Translations under genes and position numbers: made by a program
The notes under the pieces: generated by a model
Databases searched by the model: none
Told to the model about the DNA's origin: nothing
Seen by the model: the letters and a program-made list of their open reading frames with translations, nothing else
Shown: positions 46,091 through 62,362 of the stretch, one piece after another
Layout: each line of letters opens with the position of its first letter
Position numbering within the stretch: the first letter of the stretch is position 1
Origin: Malus domestica
Lineage: Eukaryota > Streptophyta > Magnoliopsida > Rosales > Rosaceae
Length of the DNA stretch: 64,000 bases
Direction: 5' to 3'
Assembly: GCF_042453785.1 (NCBI RefSeq)
Contig: NC_091670.1
Coordinates: 40,435,501-40,499,500, forward strand

Positions 46091-46958
46091 TAAATATATG
46101 GACTTGCACGGGAAAACTAGGAATTAGAAATAAGCCCAAAACTGAAATAGGTCTGTAACGCCGTTGCACTATTCCAAACCCTAGCTAGAATTTATGCATT
46201 GTATGGGTGCATATCATTCTTTGCCTTTTTATACAAGGCAGTCAGCTAGGCCTCATTGTCCTATCTTGCGTCGCCTTCATAGAATTCATGCTTGCAAGAC
46301 CTCAAGGCCGAGGCAAAACGTAAACAACATAGACCATCTTATCAAAAAGAAGACAAATTAATTACACATCACTGACTTGAGATTTTATTGCCATTCCTGA
46401 CTTGAGATTTTATTGCCATTCCTGTTTTCTGGCACTTAAAAGTCAGTACCATTGATCATTAGAAAACCAAAAAGGTTAAGAATATCAGAAGTACTCCAAG
46501 TTAAAGCAATAAGTTAATTACCTGATTTGCACACCATCGACTGCCAGTTTTCGAGCCAAGTGTTTAACAGGCAATTCGTGACTTGTTTCCCGTTTTTGCA
46601 TGCATGGACTCGTAGATGATCGATTCTGGGGCGTCAGATTTTGACGTGGGTTCCCGCATGATTTCTAGAATCGGGGATACATAACATAGCTACTTGACAA
46701 AAAAGGGACAAGATCCCACCCTAAGGAAGAAATCTTCACCTTTCCTAAACTAGGGTTGTACTAGAGTGAAAAACAAGTATTGCCCTAATTCAAACTCTTC
46801 ACGTTCAGTGTGTACTGTTATAATAAGAGACTCTGCCCTAATGCACATACGTTTTTATTGAGGTCGATTGTTCTGACATCCATTGCGTGAATAGACATCA
46901 ACGCGCGCGCAGCTCCAAACTTTTTGAGCTGTTGTCACGCCCAATTAACTTGCATAAT

Positions 46959-48482
46959 ATGGATGTGCATCTTGGGCCGGTACCACAGGACCAGCCACAG
47001 GGGCCACCAGAGGACCAGCCACAGGGGCCGAATGCCGCAGCGAATGTCCCTGGAGATAATGAAGGGGACACACTTCTTTCAGTTCATCGCGACTCAAACT
47101 TGCGACAGTTTATGTTTGCGTTGGACTTGGGGCTGTTTGACAGTGTGCAACAGTTGGAGATTCTCATTAGAGATACCTTTACCACCCTATATAACTTGCG
47201 TGGATGGCGGATTCCAGACGACTTGACATTTGTGTACTCATCCCAGTTATTTGGAGGAGACACATACACTACAGGTCAGGCTATGGCATTGGAATGGCAA
47301 GTCTTTCGTCAGCTCATCCGATACATGGTTACTGATGATTATATCTTCGGTAGAACTGTCCCGTTCTATAGAGTTTTGCTGACAGGGATGCAAAGAGAAC
47401 GAGGAAGTGTCAATATCAGGCCTTTTGACATCGTTAGTGCAGAACAATATATGCTCACCCGAATGTATTCGCCGGAGGACGGGCCGCCTCCATTGCAGCA
47501 TGCCTTTTCCTACAAACTGTCTCTCCCTGGAATTCTAGGCATCTACGAATGTCCTAGGGATCACGTGGTCAACATTCCACATGAGGATGTTGAGCGTGGT
47601 CTGCAGTGTGTCTTCTGTGCGGATATTGGTCCGAATATTAACAACAATATTGGTCCGAACATTGACAATGTTGGTTTCTTTGCTGGTGAAGGTGGGGACG
47701 GGCCGCCGCAGGGCCAGCAACAAGAGGAGAATACTGCAGCGAATGTCCCTGGAGTTAACGAAGGGGACAGGCTTATTTCAGTTGATCTCAACTCGAACGT
47801 GTGGCAGTTTTTGTTTATGTTGGACCTGACGCTGTTTGGCAGTGTGCAAGAGTTGGAGATTCTCATTGCAACTACCTGTAGGTGCCTATATAACCTCCGT
47901 GGATGGAGGATTCCTGACGACTGGACAATTGTGTACTCTCCTGGGTTATTAGGAGGAGACAGATACACCAGGGAGCAGGCTATGGAACTGACATGGCCAG
48001 CCTTTTGTCAGCTCATCCGGTACGTGGTTATGGATGACTTTTTCCACGCTAGACTTGTTCCGTTCCGTAGAGTTTTTCCAAGCGGAGAGACGAGATTTCG
48101 AGGAGATGTCAATGTCAGGCCTTTTGACATCGATCGCGCTGAACAATATATGCTCGCACGCATGTACGTGCAATTAGACGGGGAGCCGCCTCTGCCCGGG
48201 CCTCCATTGCTGCATGCATTTTCCTACATATTCTCTTCCCCTGGAGATCAAGGCCACACAGAATTGCCGAGGGATGACGTGGTCAACAATATGCCTCTGG
48301 AGCATGTTGAGCAAAATCTGCAGGCTGTCTGGTGCCGGGATATGGATCTGCTATACATTCAAAATATTAACGTTAACAATATTGATTGGCCGGAGGCGGT
48401 CGAGTTTGCCGGTGCAGTAGGAGATGAGGCGGCCGAGTTTGCTGGTGCAGAATTGGAGGCGGAAAGCGTGGGTTCCAGTTAA
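46959..48482 (+). CDS. orphan protein with two tandem copies of an unknown domain
   Basis: Intronless, 507 residues from the first in-frame ATG (MDVHLGPVPQ); the frame is open ~70 bp further upstream but without ATG. Leader with PQGPPEDQPQGP repeats, then domain copy 1 (~residues 27-225) and copy 2 (~258-455). Each has ANVPG.NEGD, a conserved LDL.LF.SVQ.LEIL block, CLYNLRGWRIPDDW / TLYNLRGWRIPDDL, FRQLIRYMV / FCQLIRYVV, RPFDI..AEQYML.RMY, HAFSY, and a closing PRD.VVN...E.VE..LQ segment with Cys. Between them is an Asn/Ile repeat (GPNINNNIGPNIDNVG) and a second Gln-rich spacer; the tail is acidic with EFAGA repeats. I do not recognise the domain: no signal peptide, membrane segment or catalytic motif is evident. 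The frame is fully open and both copies diverge mostly at similar residues, which argues for a real protein. Confidence 0.75.
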   Translation: MDVHLGPVPQDQPQGPPEDQPQGPNAAANVPGDNEGDTLLSVHRDSNLRQFMFALDLGLFDSVQQLEILIRDTFTTLYNLRGWRIPDDLTFVYSSQLFGGDTYTTGQAMALEWQVFRQLIRYMVTDDYIFGRTVPFYRVLLTGMQRERGSVNIRPFDIVSAEQYMLTRMYSPEDGPPPLQHAFSYKLSLPGILGIYECPRDHVVNIPHEDVERGLQCVFCADIGPNINNNIGPNIDNVGFFAGEGGDGPPQGQQQEENTAANVPGVNEGDRLISVDLNSNVWQFLFMLDLTLFGSVQELEILIATTCRCLYNLRGWRIPDDWTIVYSPGLLGGDRYTREQAMELTWPAFCQLIRYVVMDDFFHARLVPFRRVFPSGETRFRGDVNVRPFDIDRAEQYMLARMYVQLDGEPPLPGPPLLHAFSYIFSSPGDQGHTELPRDDVVNNMPLEHVEQNLQAVWCRDMDLLYIQNINVNNIDWPEAVEFAGAVGDEAAEFAGAELEAESVGSS

Positions 48483-50850: not shown

Positions 50851-51523
50851 ATTGGGATATGAGTTAGCAGCGTTAACCTAAACAAGACGTTAGCCTTTTT
50901 GCATTACCATGTGTCTTATTTCTGTTGTTTCGTACTTATAATTTCTCCAGGATAAGAAGGTTTAGGGTTGCTTTTAAAAACGCATCACAGCCGCTGATAT
51001 TCACCTACAAAAATAAGTGGTAGAGATTTGATTAAATCGGATCATGCGCACAATATCCCATAGCCTAGCCAGCTTCGTGGTCGGTTGCAACACCCGGAAT
51101 AAAAAAGAGGAACGTATTAGGATATAAATAGTGATAAGATGTAGTAGAGACCTCGCGTTGTCAGAGAAGGGAAAGAAAAAAGACACAGAGAAGAGACCTT
51201 GTGTTTGAAACTCGGAATTGGACATAACCTGCAGAACAGGTCTGTTGCCCGATATCAAACCCTAAATTTATGTATCGTATGCGTACGAGTATATGGTTAT
51301 TTGCCTTCATACATATGATTCCCTCGATCCCTCTTCGGTTGATTTGGACCCTCTGTTAATTTTTCCAGTTTGAATTCTTTCATTACCAAAACCCTAGTCG
51401 ATCCCTTTTTTCTCTTTGATATATTTTATTTTCTTTCTGAAATTATTCATCCCACAACTTATTTCTTGCCGTAACTTATTTCGTTGTTTGAAAATTTGCA
51501 GGCAACGACAATCCTAATCCGAT

Positions 51524-53111
51524 ATGGCACAGAGCTCTTTTGCTGAATATGCTCGGGGTTGGTTGGTTTGTTTTGTTTTTTAACTAGTTACTAATATAAT
51601 ATATGTAATACTCATGTGCCTATTTTGGTTTTTTTTTTAAAAAAAAAAAAATATTTGGTGGTAATTTTGAATGTTTAGTATGTGAGTTTTGTTCCTCTTT
51701 GAATTGTAAATTTGTAAGTTGCTTATTGATTAAAGTTCGTTTATTAAAACACAAAAAATAAAACAAAACAAAACAAGAAAATGGAAATTAAGATTGGTGC
51801 TTCTGTTTGGTGTGAATTTTGGAAATTCGTGATTAGTTTTCTTTCTCACATATAGCTGTATTCTTCCAAATTTTTTTTGGGATTATAGGAAACTTTGCGG
51901 TTTCAAGGACCATTATTGAGTTAGAGCCTTGGAAAGCCAGAGGATGGGTAATAATTTCACTCAATCTATTTCCTACGATGAATTCTGTGGATGAACTATG
52001 TTTTGATTTAACCTGCATGCATGTGGTTTGCGGAGAAGGGTGGGATATTTGAGAAATTGCAGGAGACTGCCGTGAAGGAGAATGCGAAGGCTTGGATTGA
52101 GGCGAGGCCTGACATTCTTGACAAGGAGATTGCCATGAGAAAGATGGAGTTAGTTGCCAATTCCCTTGTTCTTTTTCGTTATCATGACTTGTATATTGCT
52201 TCAATAGATTGGGATTGTTGTTTTAATATTCATGCTTTTGATATATGTTCAGGCCATATTTTAAGAGATGCAAACGTGAACTTCGTACTTGTCCAGAAGC
52301 TAGGGAATTGAGGCAAAAACGTCCAAACTTTGTACCAGTAGGAATTTATTTTTTAGCTACTTCCCATGCGTTCATTCATTTGATAATATACTATATTCTA
52401 ATTTGTGATCTCATGCAGGTGATTGTGGAGAAGCATGGAAGGAGTGACATTCCTGACATTGAGTTGGTTAAGTTAGTTTCCAATTCCCTTTTGCTTTAGT
52501 GATCTTTATTTTCGTTGTTACCATGCAGTCGTTTATGCTTTTGGTATATGTTCGGAAATTTATCGGAAAAAGAAAGAAGACCAGTTGCCTTCATAGTTCC
52601 TTGTCCTAAATTAATGAAGGGGTTCTCTTCTCACAATTTTATTGCATATTCTGTATTTTTGTCTGCAGATTCAATGTCCATGGTGAGCTGCCACTTGGAG
52701 AATTTGTTTATTATATTCGGGGACGGATTGGGTGGCTCAACGTAGACAACATAGACAAGCCTATATTTGTCTCTTTTAAGAACACAGAACCTCCTGCTGG
52801 TGAGTTTCCACTCGTTTTTTTTTAATATATCACCTTGTTCCCAAAGTTAAAACTGTGTTTGTGGTTATAACTATTCGAATATTGTTATAGGTGCCTTGAT
52901 GTCTGAAGTCGATGTGGAAAACAAGGGTGAAGATGGATTTCTTCACGTGACCTACAGTGGAGAAGGGAATGGCCCTGAATCCATCAATCATGAGCAAGAA
53001 TGGAGAGAGAAGACAATGCCTGGACCTGACTTATTGTTGCGGAGAGGGAGAGGGCTTGCTGGGAAGACAATGCGGGAGCTCTCTCAGTCATTGATTCGAC
53101 TACATGCTTAG
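51524..53111 (+). CDS. divergent ATG8-like (ubiquitin-fold) protein, copy A
   Basis: Seven exons: 51524-51557, 51889-51947, 52036-52148, 52253-52337, 52419-52471, 52669-52799, 52891-53111; 231 residues, all phases join. Residues ~70-186 align with plant ATG8: FKRCKREL..EARELRQKRP, then VPVIVEKHGRSDIPDIE (ATG8 has IPVIVEKAxRSDIPDID), GEFVYYIRGRI (GQFVYVVRKRI), IFVSFKN, GALMSEV and EDGFLHVTYSGE. Introns fall where plant ATG8 genes have them (before VIVEK, after the IDKKK equivalent, before GALMS). ATG8 is lipidated and recruits cargo to autophagosomes. Differences: ~70 extra N-terminal residues from three exons, ATG8 docking-site Tyr-Leu replaced by Phe-Asn (116-117), a 4-residue insertion after GRI, and ~45 extra residues past the position of the ATG8 C-terminal Gly (Gly186), without the usual Phe before it. 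The exon 3 acceptor (TTTGCGGAG) is weak; that junction is the least sure. Confidence 0.8.
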
Positions 53112-53353
53112 TCCTTTTAGTTTTAAATCCTGCTTAGTAATTATGTTTATGTCTAATTCTGGTTATGTGCCAAGACGAGAAAGAGGTGTTTTGAGTCTGT
53201 TCTTAATAAGTGTTTTGAGACTGTACTTTGGCTAAATCTACAAAACTTTCCCCATACATAATCCTCCAAGCGTACCACTGGATGACTGGAAGAATTTGAG
53301 TCTCGTTTTAAATGAACATCATGGAGCATCATTGTGTTGGGGCTTAAAAAGAT

Positions 53354-53574
53354 GGACAAGGATTGTCTGCCCTCCTAGTTGTGGTGCCCTTCCATACCCT
53401 CCTATTTTGTGCGGTCACGGTTAAACCACGTCAATATTTTATATTTTAATTATTTTTTGTCTTATTATCTCATTAAAAAATTAATATAAAATATTGACGT
53501 GGCTTAACCGTGACCGCACAAAATAGGAGGGCATGGAAGGGCACCACAACTAGGAGGGCAGACAATCCAAGTCC
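53354..53574. mobile_element. MULE-like MITE, family copy 3, nested in the copia LTR
   Basis: 221 bp with long inverted arms (GGACAAGGATTGTCTGCCC left, GGGCAGACAATCCAAGTCC right), flanked by the perfect 9-bp TSD TAAAAAGAT (53345-53353 and 53575-53583). A 9-bp TSD with long arms fits Mutator-like MITEs. The intact right LTR lacks it, which proves insertion after the copia element. Confidence 0.93.
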
Positions 53575-53608
53575 TAAAAAGATTTCACTACTTTGGAGAT
53601 GTTTATCT

Positions 53609-54267
53609 TGTTGTGCTAGGATAGCACCAAACCCGTTGGAACCAACTCAAGCTAACCCACAGGAAATTTATCAAATGAAAATGTAAGAACAAAATATAAA
53701 AGAACACCAAGATTTTAACGAGGTTCCTCAACAGTCAGTGTAACTGGAGTACGTCCTCGGAGCAGTAGGAGCTCACCCAATAATCCACTATCAACCAAAT
53801 GGGAGTTTACAAAGTGTTGACAATCTCACAACCCAAAAGCCCAATACACCCAATAGCTCTCACACACCAAAGAAACAAATAGAGAAAGAAATATAATGAA
53901 TAATTTCTTCTCTATACATATAGCTCAAAGCTATTACAACAACAACTACTTTGGTTGATGATTACTAATCAAATGAAGCAGCAGCTTCTTCTTCTGTTTT
54001 GGGCTCTCTGCAACTCTCCCTTCTCTCTGCAGAAAATAAGCTCTCTATATCTAGCTTCAAAGGCAACAACACCAAGTCTTGAACCAAAAACCCACGGGTG
54101 TTAAAGGTAAAAGAAAAAGAAAAAACTTTTCACCCAAAACAAGGAAGAGACACAATGATGTTGTCCATCTTTTCTCTTTTCAACAAACATCATCATGTTG
54201 TTTTTTTTTTCTTTCTTTGTTTAATAGCCGAAAGGTTTTTTGGACACTTGTGGCCATTAATTCAACA
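53609..54267. mobile_element. solo LTR nested in the copia left LTR
   Basis: 659 bp starting TGTTGTGCTAGG and ending TTAATTCAACA, with 5-bp TSD TATCT on both sides (53604-53608 and 54268-54272). The sequence is absent from the right LTR of the host element. No internal coding region or primer site remains, as expected after LTR-LTR recombination. It carries a phrase typical of plant copia LTRs (GATTTTAACGAGGTTC). Confidence 0.88.
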
Positions 54268-54772
54268 TATCTCACAAAGAAGAATGTAATGCAACGGAAT
54301 TGATAGGCAAGAGAAAGAAAGAATACTCAAAGTATTACACGAGATATTTATTTACTCACAAACTTAGTACAAAAGGAAATACTCAAACACTCTTAGAAGC
54401 TTTGTTGCTTCTTCTCACTTCTCACTACTTGCTCTCTTGGTTGGTTCAAATGGTGTGGATGCCTTCTCCTTTTATAAGCATGGATGGAACCTTGGAGAAG
54501 CATGGAAGCATCATGCTAGAGATATCTAGATAATTCCACTACCTTCCTAAGCTAGAATTATCTACATTAATCTTGTATGTTGGTGGAATCCTCACCATTC
54601 TTTTAGACTCTTCCACCAACTTGAACTTTGCTAGAATTCTCTAGAATGTGCATGGATCTTCCTTTGTGTATGGGCCGGATCAATTGTCTTGGGCCAAGAC
54701 AAGATTATATTTCAACATCCCCCCTTAATCTTGTCTTGTGATGCCGATTGATTTCCTCAATCTAACAAAGTC

Positions 54773-55989
54773 TTATTGTTTGAGTGGCTTGGTGAATATG
54801 TTGGCGACTTGGTCTTGAGACTTCACGTATTCCACTTGCACATCCTTTCTTGCAATACACTCTCTTATGTAATGATAGCGGGTATCTATGTGTTTGCTCA
54901 TGTCATGGAATACTGGATTCTTTGCTAGAGCTATTGCAGACTTGTTGTCGACATAGATCTCCGTTGGCTCTTCTTGTGGCATGCTTAATTCTTTCAGCAA
55001 ATTTCTCACCCAGATTGCATGACAAACACATAAGGTAGCAGCTACGTATTCAGCTTCGCAGGTAGAGAGAGTGACAATCGATTGCTTCTTCGACATCCAT
55101 GTGAATGCAGTGTCTCCCATAAAGAACACAAATCTAGTAGTGCTTTTCTATCGTCGGAATCTCCTGCCCAATCACTGTCGCTATATCCAACAAGTTTGTA
55201 GTTACTAGAACTTGAATAGAACAAGCCAAAGTTAACAGTACCTTTAAGGTATCGAAGAATTCTTTTGACGGTCTTCAAATGTGTAGTTGTGGGATTCTCC
55301 ATGTAGCGACTGACTAATCCAACGGCATAGAGAATGTCTGGTCTTGTGCAAGTCAAGTAGCATAAGCTTCCAACTAGACTTTTGAAAAATGTTGGATCTA
55401 CGTTTTTTCCTTTGTCATGCTTGGTTAGTTTGACTCTGCACTCCACTGGCGTGCTTATGGGCTTGCAGTTGTCCATTTTGAACTTTTTTAGTATCTCCTT
55501 TGTGTAGCTTTCTTGGGAGATGAAAATGCCTTCTTCGTTCTGCTTTACTTCAATGCCTAGGTAGTATGCCATTAGCCCGATGTTGGTCATCTTGAATTCT
55601 TTAGTCATCACTCTTTTGAACTTTTCAAACATGCTTAGATTACTTCCGGTGAAGATTAGATCATCCACATATAAGCACACAATTAGAATATCTCCATCTT
55701 TGACTTTGATGTAGAAAGCATGTTCATGAGGGCACTTAATGAAGTTGTTTTCTTGAAAGTACTTGTCGATGTGACTATTCCATGCTCGTGGCGCTTGTTT
55801 TAACCCATATAGGGCTTTCTTCAGCTTCAGAACTTTATCTTCATACCCTTTGATTTTATAGCTTGATGGTTGCTGAATGTAGACTTTTTCTTCAAGGACT
55901 CCATTTAGGAAAGCGGACTTCACATCCATTTGTTGAATCTTCCATTTGTTTTGAGCTGCTAAAGAAATTAGTAATCGTATAGTTTTCAA
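54773..55989 (-). pseudogene. copia reverse transcriptase and RNase H
   Basis: RT frame 55042-55989 begins inside the domain and carries QMDVKSAFLNG, LYGLKQAPRAW, LYVDDLIF and SDWAGD. RNase H (54773-55129), with KQSIVTLSTCEAEYVA, DNKSAIALAKNP and IFTKPL, lies in another frame. The change falls near 55140-55150 and looks like a single-base deletion in an A run. Upstream, more frame breaks separate it from the integrase part. Confidence 0.9.
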
Positions 55990-56255
55990 CCGAGCAACGG
56001 GTGCAATACCTCATCATAGTCGATTCTGGCTCTTTGACTATAGCGATTCGCACTAATCTTGCCTTGTATCTTTCGACCTCTTCGTTGGCATTTTTCTTTA
56101 TGTTGTACACCCACTTGACTCCGATGGCTTTGTGTCATTTCGGAAGAATAGCGAGTTCCCATGTATCGTTCTTCTGGATTGCTTCAATTTCTTCATCCAT
56201 TGCTTTCCTCCACTTAATATCTTGCACTGCTTCTTGGAAGTCAACTGGTTCACAA

Positions 56256-57169
56256 TCAGGAAAGAGACAGAAAAAGTGTAGGATTATCGAGTCTTTCAGC
56301 TACCTCATAGAGATCTCGTAGACTTCTTGTGCGTGGTACTTCTCTTTCATTTAGACTCTCACTTAATGATGCTGATGCTGGTGAATTGCCATGATTGGTT
56401 GATGTTGATGAAGCATGTGGAGTAGTAGATTCTTGTTGAACCTCTCTTGCTTGCTCCATCATCCCTTGTTCATTCTCTTTTTCAAACTGAGGAAAGAAGT
56501 GAAGATCACCTGCATGAGAGCCAAAATCCCATTCTCCTTCTTCATCGAACATCACGTCTCGACTGATCACCGTTTTCCCATTGTTTGGATTATACAACTT
56601 ATAGCCTTTTGAATTTGAGTCATAGCCAATGAAGATAAACTTCTCACTTTTTTCGTCGAGTTTGGTTCTCCTCTCGTCTAGTACATGTACATGGGCTATG
56701 CTTCCAAAAACTCTTAGATGAGAGATACCTGGTTTTCTTCCACTCCATGCTTCTTGCGGAGTCTTTCCCCACACACTTCTTGTTGGAGACCGATTGGATA
56801 AGTATACAGCACATGATATAGCTTCTGCCCACAACTCATTAGGCAATCTTTTACTTTTGAGCATGCTTCGAGCCATGTCGAGGATGGTTCGATTTTTCTT
56901 TCTGCCACACCATTTTGTTGAAGGGATCTTGGAACTGTCAAAGGTCGATGAATTCCATTGGCTTCACAGAATTCTTGAAATTCATTTGAAGTGAATTTTC
57001 CTCCTCGATCAGATCTCATGGCTTTGATCTTGCAACCACTTTCTTTTTCTACGGAAACTTTGAACTTCTTAAATGCTCTAAATACCTCTGATTTCTGCTT
57101 CAAGAAATACACCCAGATTTTCCTTGAAAGATCATCAATAAAGAGAAGGAAATAATTATTTTTAACCAA
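56256..57169 (-). pseudogene. copia integrase core and C-terminal part
   Basis: The core has FIDDLSRKIWVYFLKQK, SDRGGKFTSNEFQEFC and QQNGVAERK. The reading then shifts frame near 56870 and continues as LPNELWAEAISCAVYL and FGSIAHVHV..KLDEKSEKFIFIGYD. Broken into two frames by at least one small indel; further stops lie between 57170 and 57400. Confidence 0.88.
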
Positions 57170-57397
57170 AGAGCTTGATTTTATTGAACCTCACACATCG
57201 GTGTGAATGAGCTCGAGTGGCTTCTGGGCTCTTATGGTCGACTCATTTGGAAAGCTTTTCCTGAACTGTTTCCCAAGTAAACATCATTCGCAAGCTTGAT
57301 CAGGGCGACTGATGCACGGTAAGCCTCTCACCATCTCCTTCTTGGATAATAACTCCAGTCCCCCAAAGTTAAGATGCCCAAAACGAAGATGCCAAAG

Positions 57398-57763
57398 CTA
57401 GGATGTGTCTTTGTAACTTGTTTTGAGGCACTTTGCAACATCATTTTGAATATTCATAGGAAACATCCTATTCTTTGACATTTTCACCTTGGCAATTAAT
57501 CTTCCTTTGTCATCTCTAAGAAAAAGGCAATAATTTTTCATGTGAATATCATAACCTTTTTCTAAGAGTTGACACAAGCTTAAAATGTTGCTTTTCATAT
57601 TGGGCACGTAGTAGACATTTGAAATTAATTGGTGACCGCCATTTTTCAGGAGAATTAGGATGTTATCTTTTCCTTTGACAGGTATTTTGGATTCGTCTCC
57701 AAAAGAAACGTTGCCACTCACCGATTCATTAAGCTCTACGAACATGCTTCTTCTTCCGCACAT
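57398..57763 (-). pseudogene. copia GAG-pre-integrase / protease-end segment
   Basis: Contains a segment in the style of the end of copia protease and the GAG-pre-integrase domain ([31 protein letters not shown]). A stop codon separates it from the gag frame just upstream. The protease active-site region around 57770-57800 reads DTSASNHM where DTGASNHM is usual. Confidence 0.8.
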
Positions 57764-57802
57764 GTGGTTGCTGGCGCTGGTGTCAAGGTAGCATGTATAG
57801 TC

Positions 57803-58477
57803 TTAGTTTCCATCATTGTTCATGCATGCTAGTAGCACAACGCCATTATCTTCTTTCTCTTCTTTCACATAATTGACCTTCTCATCAGGCTTGTTGCTTG
57901 GAGCTCTACATTCCCAAGCATAATGCCCAAACTTTTGACAATTGTAGCATTGAACTTGAGATTTTTCATACCTTAAGTTTGAGCGCCCTCTTCCACGACC
58001 TTTTGTTGAGCTTCCTCCTTTTTCGTAGTTGATATGGTTGTTGAAGTTCCAACCACGTCCACGTCCATGTCCTCGTCTGCGACCTCGACCACAACTTCTT
58101 TCGTAATGGCTTCTCTTGTTGTCGAAGCTTTCTTCTTTCTTCTTTGGCTGGACATGCGTCTTGAGGAGCTGCTCATCATTCCTTTGCCTTTTCTTATGTT
58201 TCTCTTCATATGCTTGTAGCGAACCCATTAATTGCTCTATACTAATTTCTTCCAAGTTTTTAGTTTCTTCAATCGTCACGACAAGGTGCTCGAACTTGGG
58301 GTCCAACGAACGTAGTATCTTCTCCATAATTCTAACATCTTCCAACTTTTCTCCGTTTCTTTTTAATTGATTGGAAACGGCTAAGACTCTTGAGAAATAA
58401 TCAGAGATTGATTCAGACCCTTTCATTTGTAAAGATTCGAACTCACCTCTTAATACTTGAAGACGAACCTTTTTCAC
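57803..58477 (-). pseudogene. copia gag with zinc knuckle
   Basis: 224-residue frame with the copia gag UBN2-like region ([38 protein letters not shown]), an Arg/Gly-rich stretch and the CCHC knuckle [14 protein letters not shown]. The N-terminal part of gag (58478-58800) carries frame breaks. Confidence 0.9.
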
Positions 58478-58817
58478 TTGTTCAGCTCCTTTGTAAGAGG
58501 TTTGAAGCTTCTCCTATGCTTGCTTGGCCGAGGTTGCACTCGAGACCTTCTCAAAGCCATTGTCATCCAATGCTTGGTAGATGAGGTAGAGAGCCTTCTT
58601 GTCTCTCTTTCTTGAATCTTTCAAACTCTCCTTTTGGGGTTTGGACAGAGTAGCTTTATCTTATGGCTCAGTGTAGCCTTTCTCCACGACTTCCCATACA
58701 TCGTGTGCTCCCAAAAGGGCCTTTATTTTAATACTCAAATTATCGAAGTTGTTGTTGTCGAGCACTGGAACTTGGAAGGCTGCCATAGCGTTGCTAGCCA
58801 TAGCTCTGATACCACTT

Positions 58818-59306
58818 TGTTTGGGCTTAAAAAGACTTCACTACTTTGGAGATGTTTATCTCACAAAGAAGAATGTAATGCAGCGGAATTGATAGGCAAG
58901 AGAAAGAAAGAATACTCAAAGTATTACACAAGATTTTTATTTACTCACAAACTTAGTACAAGAGGAAACACTCACACACTCTTAGAAGCTTTGTTGCTTC
59001 TTTTCACTTCTCACTACTTGCTCTCTTGGTTGGTTCAAATGGTGTGGATGCCTTCTCATTTTATAGGCATGGATGGAACCTTGGAGAAACATGGAAGCAT
59101 CATGCTAGAGATATCTAGATAATTCCACTACCTTCCTAAGTTAGAATTATCTACATTAATCTTGTATGTTGGTGGAATCCTCACCATTCTTCTAGACTCT
59201 TCCACCAACTTGAACTTTGCTAGAATTCTTTAGCATGTGCATGGATCTTTCTTTATGTATGGGCCAGATCAATTGTCTTGGACCAAGACAAGATTACATT
59301 TCAACA
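58818..59306 (-). repeat. 5' LTR of the copia element (intact copy)
   Basis: 489 bp, TG...CA on the plus strand (TGTTTGGGC...TTTCAACA). It is not interrupted and serves as the reference for recognising the two insertions in the left LTR. Confidence 0.92.
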
Positions 59307-59465
59307 CATTGAACATCAACGATGAAGGTGCTAGTAGTTTCCGAAGTGAATATAGAATATACTGGACGAGTAATGGACAAGAATCGGCATGCTCTTGACA
59401 TATATGGGAGCTCTCATCATAAGTAGTTATTTGAAAATTTCGTACATACGAGGTTGATCATAGTG

Positions 59466-59620
59466 ATTATGGCAAGTGTCTTCGCCCATGAGCGGTAGGT
59501 CTTTGGTTCGAGACTTGGGAGCAGCCTCTCCATAAATGGGGGTAAGGCTAGCCGACATTCACCTCTCCCAGACCCTGCGTAAAGCGGGAGCCTTGTGCAC
59601 TGGGTATGACCTTTATTGTT
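59466..59620 (+). mobile_element. Au-SINE-like retroposon
   Basis: Contains a pol III B-box-like GGTTCGAGAC, then GCAGCCTCTCCATAAATGGG, GGTAAGGCTAG, CCCAGACCCTGCGTAAAGCG and GGGAGCCTTGTGCACTGGGT, which together are diagnostic of plant Au SINEs, ending in a T-rich tail. The 5' boundary and target duplication are not clear. Confidence 0.8.
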
Positions 59621-60485
59621 ATTTATTTTCTGGGTAATACAATTCGTAGGGAGCTTTGCCTATGCCTTAACCTCTTTCAAGCTTGAAAATCCTCTCTGGT
59701 CTTTTTCCTGTCTGTTAATTATAATTGGGATAGGATAGTGAGCCCTAGCTCCCCACATAATTAGGGTTTATGATAAACCCTAAACCCGCAATTTATCCAA
59801 AGTTTACTAATTTGGATTATGACTGCCGAACAGTGGAGAGATGTTCAGTCGGTGAACAAGCACAACAATTTGTGAACCTTGGTTGAGAAAATCTTATGTA
59901 TGATGGCAAACAATCATATACTTGTAGACGCATATTAAGATACATAAATTTTAGGTTTGATAGCGGGCAACAAACCTGTTTTGTGTCATGTCAAATTCTG
60001 ACATTTGAACACGATGTCTCTATACTAACATCTTAGGGGTGTAGCGTATTAAGATTTATATGGATTTTTGTTATCATTGAGATCTGCCTTCGCGTGAGTA
60101 GACGTCAGAAGCTCGAACCTTGTTTTCTTTGCCCGTAAAAAACCCTAGAAGATCTTAAATACAGTGGTGAGTCTTCGAAAGTTGCAAAACAAAAGTATTT
60201 TCATTTCTTTTTCTTTCAATAGAACATAGAGCTTATATTTTAGGCGTACTTGTGATTCTGTGCCTTTAAATATCTCTCTCCTCGTTTGATTGATTTTGGC
60301 CGTCTGTTATTTTCCCAGTTCTCAACCATCAACAATCAAATCCCTAATCCATTTATGTCAAGTCCTTAGTTTTTTGTTTTCCCTTATTTTTTCTTATAAT
60401 TCTAATTGTCTAATTGATTGAAATTGGACTTGTTAGTTATATTTATAAATTGTTTTTTCTTTTGTATTATTTTCTCAGTGAGGCT

Positions 60486-60549
60486 AGCCGACATTCACCT
60501 CTCCCAGACCCTGCGTAAAGCGGGAGCCTTGTGCACTGGGTACGACGAC
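60486..60549 (+). mobile_element. 5'-truncated Au-SINE copy with long target duplication
   Basis: The last ~65 bp of the SINE (AGCCGACATTCACC to GGGTACGACGAC) match the element at 59550-59610. Direct repeats of 27 bp (60459-60485 and 60550-60576, beginning CTTTTGTATTATTTTCTCAG) flank it. Long target duplications and 5' truncation are hallmarks of L1-type retroposition. Confidence 0.8.
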
Positions 60550-60912
60550 CTTTTGTATTATTTTCTCAGTGAGGCTTAACAGACAAAGAAAACAGTGGAT
60601 ACTTCCACTAGTTGAGTAGAAGGTGACGACCTTAATGAAACAACTATGAAGGTGGCTATTAGCTACATCAGCGCTCAAATTCTTTCATCGTCCCTGGCAT
60701 CGATGATCAACCCCGGGAACATTTAGGTTTTGATCTTCAGCCATCCTAGTCCTCAGGACCCAACACAATATTATTCATTCTTATATATTTCCTTTAAAAG
60801 ATGCAAAAGGTGTTGATACGTCCTATCCACATAGAAAGCTTACCCTCTTCCACTGTTATTTTGTGATGTTTCGTTGTTTGAAAATTTGCAGGGAACAGCA
60901 ATCATACTCGAT

Positions 60913-62311
60913 ATGGCAAAAAGCTCTGTCGATGCTGAATATGCTCGGGGTCTGTTCATCTGTTTTTAACTAGTTAATTTTATAGTTTTTGCAATACTCA
61001 TATGCCTATTTTGTTTGTTTTAAATATTTTGATGTTAATTTTTGGATGTTTAATATTTCCACCAGAGTTATGATATTTGTTCCTTTTTGAATTGGAAGTT
61101 GCTTTATTGAAAGAAAAAGAAGAAGACATAAATTATGATTTTCTGCTTCTGTTTGGTGTGAATTTTGAATCTTGATGATTGTTTTCTTTCCATTTTTTTT
61201 GGAATAAAGGAAACTTTGCGATTTCAAGGCCCATTGGTGTGTTAAAGTGAAAGGATGGGTACGAATTTTACTCGGTCAATATCCTATGCACGTTTGCATT
61301 TTTTGAACGCAGTACTACTTTGAGCTTCCATACATGTGATTTGCGGAGAAGGGTGGTATGTATGATAAGTTGCAGGAGACTATCATGAAGGAGAATGCCG
61401 CTTGGATTGCCGCGAGGCCTGACATTCCTGGCAAGGAGGATGCCATGAGGAATATTGAGTTAGTTGCCAATTCCCTTGTTGTCTTGAGTTGTCTTGATTA
61501 ATTTGTACTGCTTCAATAGATTGGGATGTTGTTTTTCCATTTACGCTTTTGATATGTGTTCAGGTTATATATTAAGATATTCAAACACAAACTCCATACT
61601 TGTGCAAAAGCTTGGGAGTTAAGGGAGAAGCGTCGAGGCTTTGTACCAGTAAGAATTTCACCCTGTCAAATTTATGTTTTACTTCCTCTCCATGCGTTCA
61701 TTCAATTGGATACATATTATAATTTGAGCTCCCATACAGGTGATTGTGAAGGATGGAAGGAGTGACATTCCTTACGTTGAGTATGACAAGTTAATTTCCA
61801 ATTCCCTTTTGCTTTAGTTATCTTATTTTTGTTGTTACCGTGGATTAGTCGTTTATGTTTTCGGTATATGTTCGGAAATTCATCTGCAAAGGAAGAAGAC
61901 ATTTGTGTTCATAGTTCCTTGTCTTATACGAAGGCGGGTTCTTATTGCCTGTTCTGTTAATTTAATTTCTGTCTACAGAATGCTTGTCCACGGTGAGCTG
62001 CCTCTTGGTGAATATAGTTATTTCATTCGGGCATGGATCGGGTGGCTCAACATAGACACCATAGACAAGCCTATTTTTGTTTCCTTCAAGAACATTGAGC
62101 CTCCCATTGGTGAGTTCAAACTCAACCTTATTTTAGTTTTAGGCTTAAATATGCCATCTTGTTCCCAAAGTTAAAGTTGTGGCTGTTGAAATAATACTTC
62201 CAATGTTTTGATAGGTGCCTTGATGTCTGAAGTCGATGAGCAAAACAAGGACGAAGATGGATTCCTCCATGTCACCTACGGTGGAGAAGGGAAGGCCCAT
62301 GGAACCATCAA

Positions 62312-62348
<37 letters not shown>
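60913..62348 (+). pseudogene. divergent ATG8-like, copy B (damaged)
   Basis: Same exon plan as copy A: 60913-60949, 61210-61258, 61349-61458, 61564-61648, 61740-61789, 61979-62109, 62215-62348. The ATG8-like core is open: RRGFVPVIVKDGRSDIPYVE, GELPLGEYSYFIR, DKPIFVSFKN, GALMSEVDEQNKDEDGFLHV, TYGGEG. Exon 2 is 10 bp shorter than in copy A and reads into TGA at 61248-61250. The C-terminal extension has been overrun by a (GA)n microsatellite (62316-62345) that codes Glu-Arg repeats and ends at TAG 62346-62348. A shorter product starting from the Met in exon 3 cannot be excluded, so this may be a gene with altered N-terminus rather than a dead copy. Confidence 0.75.
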
Positions 62349-62351
<3 letters not shown>

Positions 62352-62362
62352 GAGAGAGAAGA
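62316..62362. repeat. (GA)n microsatellite inside ATG8-like copy B
   Basis: GA dinucleotides with a single T interruption at 62346. Copy A has no such tract at the matching site (GAGCAAGAATGGAGAGAGAAG). Confidence 0.95.

Follow-up and report, generated by a model that had tools for sequence, protein, structure and literature searches.

The window analysed here, a 64,000-nt stretch of apple (Malus domestica) DNA taken as a whole (C10:40435501-40499500), carries two tandem genes that, judged from their sequences, are ATG8 by descent. Copy 1 (51524-53111) has seven coding exons with 222 open codons, and six of its six introns are of the GT-AG type; copy 2 (60913-62348) has the same set of exons, separated by six introns. 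Between the copies, exons 1, 3 and 5 each differ by 3 nt in length, and exons 4 and 6 are identical in length. The exons of both genes and the long terminal repeat (LTR) element lying between them are as follows (UTR, untranslated region; aa, amino acids).

51502..51557, plus strand: copy 1 exon 1, with the end of the 5' UTR, ATG at 51524, MAQSSFAEYAR(G)
51889..51947, plus strand: copy 1 exon 2 (alpha1), ending ...IIELEPWKARGW
52063..52148, plus strand: copy 1 exon 3 (beta1), ETAVKENA...MRKM
52253..52337, plus strand: copy 1 exon 4 (alpha2), N-terminal helix region up to FVP
52419..52471, plus strand: copy 1 exon 5 (beta2), VIVEKHGRSDIPDIELV
52669..52799, plus strand: copy 1 exon 6 (gamma), FNVHGELPLGEF...PIFVSFKNTEPPA, with the docking-site changes and a 4-aa insertion
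52891..53111, plus strand: copy 1 exon 7 (delta), ALMSEV...HVTYSGE and a 48-aa tail, stop TAG at 53109-53111, no Phe-Gly
60892..60949, plus strand: copy 2 exon 1, ATG at 60913, MAKSSVDAEYAR(G)
61210..61258, plus strand: copy 2 exon 2, homologous extent, in frame only when spliced after 61238
61376..61458, plus strand: copy 2 exon 3 (beta1), from a reading of the sequence
61564..61648, plus strand: copy 2 exon 4 (alpha2), from the exon model and the Pfam match
61740..61789, plus strand: copy 2 exon 5 (beta2), from the exon model and the Pfam match
61979..62109, plus strand: copy 2 exon 6 (gamma), from the exon model and the Pfam match
62215..62348, plus strand: copy 2 exon 7 (delta), stop TAG at 62346-62348 within a GA repeat
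54268..59306, minus strand: Copia-type LTR element between the copies, LTRs at 54268-54717 and 58857-59306, 95.8% alike

Exon 1 of copy 1 is preceded by the intron end GTTTGAAA(A)TTTGCAG, as is the MAKSSFKLEHTL exon of the canonical ATG8 genes on C5 and C10, and the frame of copy 1 closes at its own stop, which rules out a fusion to a second module. Because exon 2 of copy 2 is shorter than that of copy 1 by 10 nt, the homologous donor of copy 2 leads to a stop, and an alternative donor at 61239 (GTGTTA) yields an uninterrupted frame of 182 aa that ends at 62348. An earlier reading of the window (the original prediction) had placed the end of the gene pair at 62348; this end point holds with the alternative donor and is lost to the stop with the homologous one. 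An in-frame ATG is also present inside exon 3 of copy 2, at 61385. The stop codon of copy 2 is provided by a GA microsatellite (62316-62361), and the C-terminus may therefore differ among individuals.

Both copies match ATG8

The predicted proteins were searched against Pfam and gave significant matches to ATG8 (PF02991), at 2.5e-18 and 66.6 bits for copy 1 and at 1.2e-11 and 45.1 bits for exons 3-7 of copy 2 (curated cut-off 27), so that the lack of a hidden Markov model match, which the original prediction had named as fatal to itself, was not observed. When copy 1 was searched against PDB, the best matches were the ATG8 chains 5l83 (4.2e-24) and 7dht (4.7e-24), both of which we take to be plant ATG8 proteins (ATG8f for 7dht). 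The sequence matches show that the ATG8 ubiquitin-like (UBL) domain is kept in the window proteins, and from the PDB matches we infer that its fold is kept as well. Pfam detected one ATG8 stretch per copy rather than two UBL domains, and the models (222 aa for copy 1, 182 aa for copy 2) fall outside the ~117-122 aa of ATG8. A chance motif match is ruled out by the Pfam and PDB scores, and a processed pseudogene is ruled out for the pair by the six introns retained in each copy.

Furthermore, the motifs on which the original prediction had relied (VPVIVEKHGRSDIPDIE / VPVIVKDGRSDIPYVE, GELPLGEFVYYIR / GELPLGEYSYFIR, IFVSFKN, GALMSEV and EDGFLHVTY) are found in both copies in the order and place it gave. 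The introns likewise occupy plant ATG8 positions, after ...P (before VIV), after the K of the RSDIP exon and after PPx, matching the ordinary C5 ATG8 gene.

Exon 6 alone matched no Pfam family in either copy, a null expected for 43 aa. A whole-genome, exon-by-exon Pfam scan listed 33 matches at E<=1e-3, none of them a window copy; hence the spliced proteins were needed to reveal the ATG8 match. Two other matches stayed under the cut-off, namely RRP7 to the GA-repeat tail of copy 2 (0.0084) and a weak one of APG12 to the relative C4a (0.016).

The C-terminal Phe-Gly is absent

The C-terminal Phe-Gly (Gly116) is missing from both copies, which read SGEGNGPESINHEQEW (copy 1) and GGEGKAHGTINHE (copy 2) where the putative parent gene (see below) has SGENVFGS. 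In copy 1 a Pro is aligned with Gly116, and the C4 and C14 relatives retain the Gly but not the preceding Phe. Because the terminal Phe-Gly is gone and Gly116 is replaced by Pro in copy 1, the window proteins are very unlikely to be lipidated, and the missing Phe-Gly makes a loss of autophagy function likely in these genes. With no Phe-Gly for ATG4 to expose, the proteins, if made, should be soluble.

We also compared the docking residues in hand-read alignments using yeast numbering, into which the docking sites given for LC3B in an excerpt of PMC7615515 were transferred by hand. Copy 1 retains E17, P30, I32, K48, F60, I64, F77 and F104, carries the replacements I21L, Y49F, L50N, P52H, V63Y and F79S, and has four extra residues following position 70. 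Copy 2 has Y49M and retains L50. The change from Tyr-Leu to Phe-Asn that had been proposed for the docking site of the pair is thus correct for copy 1, whereas copy 2 has Met-Leu. The same excerpt of PMC7615515 describes yeast Y49 and L50, on the docking face, and F77 and F79, on the opposite face, as essential for autophagy.

Relatives of the pair across the genome

The genome (651 Mb in 19 contigs) was searched at the protein level with three queries, copy 1, the spliced C14 model and a C12 composite. Ordinary ATG8 genes excluded, the family occupies at least 20 places including the window pair (hand count, E<=1e-3 in at least one search), the counts being lower bounds since only the best candidates were scored. 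C12:22.2125 with C12:22.2199, and C11:12.5514-12.5546, were counted as one place each, and C3:24.65 and C3:30.27 hold one matching stretch each. Rather than a singular tandem novelty, the pair is two of about 20 places of this kind in the genome, and several of these are visibly broken. Of the 20 places, five are near the putative parent gene, four within 220 kb on C10 and one within 145 kb on C5, and an additional weak match (C5:45.473, best E 0.0089) is located 3 kb from it.

The LEPW/LDPWN-type exon of copy 1 is also found at the C14, C6, C4, C2, C12 and C10:41.958 loci, and the beta1 exon of the window genes resembles beta1 at the C4 loci. The C4 loci also share the copy 1 tail SINHEQEW, to be compared with SFEEQEW(L) at the end of the canonical C5 ATG8, while the C10 partner of the latter stops earlier.

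At five places beyond these 20, the last ATG8 exon alone was observed within a repeat, namely at C14:16.91, C9:9.82, C10:28.78, C16:18.58 and C2:19.97 (L044, L046, L047, L050, L051). These repeat copies are 88-94% alike over 1.4-2.0 kb in pieces (four pairs), and they probably arose through exon capture by a mobile element. At C4:17.20 and 17.17 Mb (L033/L034 with L038/L042), two copies 98-99% alike have an open frame that runs from their second exon up to the stop, and they differ by 12 replacement changes and one silent change; no exon 1 was found for either. Local clusters of clade-II (ATG8h/i-type) copies lie at C13:10.60-10.89 Mb and C16:10.43 Mb (L020-L025), and some of these copies are incomplete or interrupted by a stop.

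Within the window itself, the Copia-type element (54268-59306) has its reverse transcriptase and gag domains in separate short frames. A 531-codon open frame at 46887-48482 contains an internal 0.6-kb tandem duplication (47001-47595 vs 47700-48312, 76%) and matched no Pfam family above the cut-off.

Phylogeny, parent gene and origin of the N-terminus

A tree was built from 25 rows of this one genome, comprising 13 family members, nine canonical ATG8 loci and three clade-II loci. It left out the second module of C5:45.33, C10:42.08, C16:27.13 and C10:41.958, unfetched loci, and L021, L022, L024, L025 (clade-II, partial), L026, L028, L060 and L061. All 13 family rows fell on one side of a branch, apart from the 12 ordinary ATG8 loci (support 100/99, 100% of 200 bootstrap trees), and the window copies are sisters within the family (97/94). 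Long end branches leave the exact placement of six family rows unsure. The three clade-II rows group apart (100/100), which rules out membership of the pair in clade II (ATG8h/i).

The nearest canonical gene was not resolved by the tree. When 14 intron or UTR pieces of the window were compared with the 12 ATG8 loci, 12 matches were obtained, 10 of which were to the C5:45.470/C10:42.175 pair at matching positions and the remaining two to L019 and L020. These intron remnants support the ATG8 gene now on C5/C10 as the parent.

Intron similarities also bear on the N-terminus. Introns 3 and 5 resemble each other at their starts, at 88% over 26 nt in copy 1 and at 84% over 37 nt in copy 2. Three window introns (3 and 5 of copy 1, 5 of copy 2) match the canonical intron that follows the VIVEK exon, and two (4 of copy 1, 2 of copy 2) match the one that precedes it; the match of intron 2 of copy 2 extends into the beginning of that exon. 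Although short (20-44 nt), these matches are mutually consistent and indicate that an exon pair underwent duplication within the gene. They support an origin of the new N-terminus from a duplicated ATG8 exon pair, the first copy of which would have drifted into the LEPWK/LDPWN and ETAVKENA exons. Altogether, the original prediction is supported in its view that the pair represents a lineage derived from ATG8 in which the N-terminus was remodelled and docking residues were altered.

Intronless and two-domain relatives

A copy at C6:22.73 Mb (L018 3815-4580) has no introns and is nearly open. The spliced C14 protein model matched it as a single piece over residues 45-222 of 225 (81% identical, 3.1e-96, one stop). 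Comparison with C14:4.61 gave 10 matching blocks, eight of them in C14 exon order; the other two are a block out of order upstream, which may be an unrelated repeat, and a further match to the final ATG8 exon. Neither a poly-A tail nor target-site repeats were found by eye. The C6 copy probably represents the fossil cDNA of a sister gene. It gives no direct evidence on the window copies, and its lack of introns supports LDPWN and beta1 as spliced exons of the family. Furthermore, since C14 blocks beyond the last ATG8 exon (2397-2523 and 2606-2652) are joined in C6, the transcript would have continued into a second, degenerate module.

A relative on the minus strand at C10:41957899-41960684 (L063) was assembled by hand, with splice sites picked to follow the family exons and keep the frame, into 14 exons with consistent phases, 13 of 13 introns GT-AG, and 346 open codons plus a stop. 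Pfam recognized two ATG8 stretches in the predicted 346-aa protein (3.6e-36 in all), and this gene thus apparently codes for a single chain with two ATG8 domains. Two-module arrangements were also read at C12 (twice), C10:42.05 and C5:45.33, and all four are damaged, by insertions in both C12 loci and by stops or broken frames in the other two. Search rows alone give the same pattern at C10:41.966, C10:42.08 and C11:12.55.

Constraint and decay

Comparison of the two window copies over 148 codons gave a synonymous distance (dS) of 0.347 and a replacement distance (dN) of 0.178, that is, a ratio (omega) of 0.51 (bootstrap 0.30-0.88). For the canonical C5/C10 homeologues, dS was 0.093, dN 0.018 and omega 0.20 (7 silent and 5 replacement changes). 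Given a dS of 0.347 vs 0.093, the window pair would be older than the duplication of these homeologues if their clocks are similar. The omega interval lay below 1 in six of 13 pairwise comparisons. In codon models, whose null was the best among five fixed values of kappa, the UBL core of six members, C6 included, gave an omega of 0.456 (log likelihood, lnL, -1111.79 vs -1120.78 at omega 1; 2 x delta lnL 18.0). For the window pair with C4a, omega was 0.634 over exons 4-7 (lnL -1047.25 vs -1049.46; 2 x delta lnL 4.4) and 0.527 over the core only (2 x delta lnL 5.6).

We also simulated neutral evolution (4000 runs, indels excluded). A ratio of 0.51 or less was reached in 2.5% of runs at kappa 2 and in 0.4% at kappa 1. 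Under neutrality, copy 1 stayed free of stops in 27% of runs at d=0.05, 2.4% at d=0.17, which is half the dS between the copies, and 0.5% at d=0.25; the frame of copy 2 (exons 3-7) did so in 9.8% at d=0.17. In relative-rate tests, which overlap, copy 2 was the faster in three of four: with C4a as reference, unique sites were 16 vs 36 (p=0.008) and 10 vs 31 (p=0.0015), with canonical C5 13 vs 27 (p=0.04), and with C14a 17 vs 23 (p=0.43). These results point to probable but weak past purifying selection, stronger for copy 1. Copy 1 is perhaps a working gene, and copy 2 may be dead.

Discussion

Taken together, we favour a birth-and-death family of non-lipidatable ATG8-derived proteins, in which copy 1 would be a working ATG8 mimic and copy 2 would be failing, and we give this reading as a whole a probability of about 0.5. 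The family would have arisen in this plant lineage by copying of the ATG8 gene now on C5/C10. An exon pair of the REKYPDRIP and VIVEK types would have been duplicated inside the gene, yielding the N-terminal extension, and the copies have spread through the genome. The proteins keep the ATG8 UBL domain but have lost Phe-Gly, and they should remain soluble. Copy 1 would most likely still be at work, and its product could bind part of the ATG8 partner set through a groove in which most of the pocket residues compared are retained, the replaced positions including L50, P52 and, on the other side of the domain, F79. Such a lipid-free mimic of ATG8 would, at our best guess, compete for or divert partners instead of building autophagosomes, whereas copy 2 is probably failing. 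It is a more tentative, indeed rather doubtful, proposal that the family is lineage-specific and consists of lipid-free, ATG8-derived soluble decoys or adaptors, some with two ATG8 domains head to tail, which would make it a plant counterpart of ISG15/FAT10.

Several observations weigh against the birth-and-death reading. The omega interval includes 1 in seven of the 13 pairs, and C4a and C4b differ by 12 replacement changes vs one silent change, again with an interval that includes 1. At kappa 4, 8.9% of neutral runs reached a ratio of 0.51 or less, and at d=0.10 the frame of copy 1 was free of stops in 8.8%. By eye, C14b, both C12 loci, C5:45.33, C10:42.05 and C16:27.13 are broken, as would be expected under decay. 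C14b is missing a piece of one exon along with a splice acceptor, and C16:27.13 is a copied 3' part (96.5% over 1.4 kb) with a 1-nt loss in its last gamma exon. Both window copies might be relics of a burst of ATG8 duplicates, once constrained and now decaying at unequal speeds, copy 2 first, with no present function. We regard this as a serious explanation, if a somewhat less probable one. It would fit the break that the homologous donor makes in the frame of copy 2 at exon 2, the stop carried by a microsatellite, the faster change of copy 2 in three of the four tests, the omega of 0.5-0.6 for the window pair vs 0.20 for the canonical homeologues, and the several broken sister loci. However, the frame of copy 1 is open across its seven exons with 0.35 as the synonymous distance between the copies, the omega of the family core is below 1, and one relative (L063) reads as an open 14-exon gene with two domains.

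The opposite outcome, in which copy 2 was rescued by the new donor at 61239 and both genes are fully active, would take advantage of the uninterrupted 182-aa frame that this donor yields. We consider it unlikely, as the donor (GGT/GTGTTA) looks poor vs the plant consensus and copy 2 was the faster in the tests mentioned above. Even less probable in our view is a product of near ordinary size, a divergent ATG8 with exons 1-3 outside the protein and translation starting at a Met of exon 3, the one that closes this exon in copy 1 or one internal to it in copy 2. Exons 4-7 suffice for the ATG8 domain, and copy 2 has its in-frame ATG at 61385 in exon 3, but exon 1 is preceded by the end of a 5' UTR intron as in canonical exon 1, the C6 copy shows the LDPWN and beta1 exons of a sister gene fused with no intron between them, and beta1 is similar to that of the C4 loci.

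ATG8 is highly conserved. With the canonical clade-I ATG8 genes (C5:45.470 / C10:42.175 Mb), the window genes have in common the UBL domain, exon order, intron positions and intron remnants, and copy 1 shares the EQEW tail of the C5 gene. They differ from them by their 222/182 aa instead of about 118, an apparently duplicated N-terminal exon pair, the absence of Phe-Gly, the changes at L50, P52 and F79 in copy 1, and an exon 6 that is 36-40% identical to nine canonical loci. ISG15 and FAT10 are animal tandem ubiquitin-like proteins of another UBL type that conjugate via a C-terminal Gly. They have two UBL domains, as does the predicted chain of the C10:41.958 relative, whereas the window genes have one. 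Clade-II ATG8 (ATG8h/i), exemplified by MdATG8i in an excerpt of PMC4879346, shares the ATG8 domain and intron positions with the window genes but, unlike them, ends at Gly and groups apart. The divergent apicomplexan Atg8 with a non-autophagic role described in an excerpt of PMC9973341 is likewise an Atg8 member put to other use, although it is a parasite gene and not an expanded plant family. Among the matches listed from the open-licence PMC literature, titles and the beginnings of abstracts mention neither a family of divergent ATG8 genes in apple or elsewhere in the Rosaceae nor genes with two ATG8 domains. 'Poly-ATG8' denotes conjugated chains in an excerpt of PMC13285569, and an excerpt of PMC8429490 gives nine ATG8 genes for F. 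vesca.

The number of ATG8 genes counted in genomes of this kind varies with the search used, as the window pair was missing from the exon-by-exon Pfam scan. A family in which the UBL domain is kept, lipidation is dropped and two domains are apparently fused would make it possible to ask which of the tasks of ATG8 need a membrane anchor.

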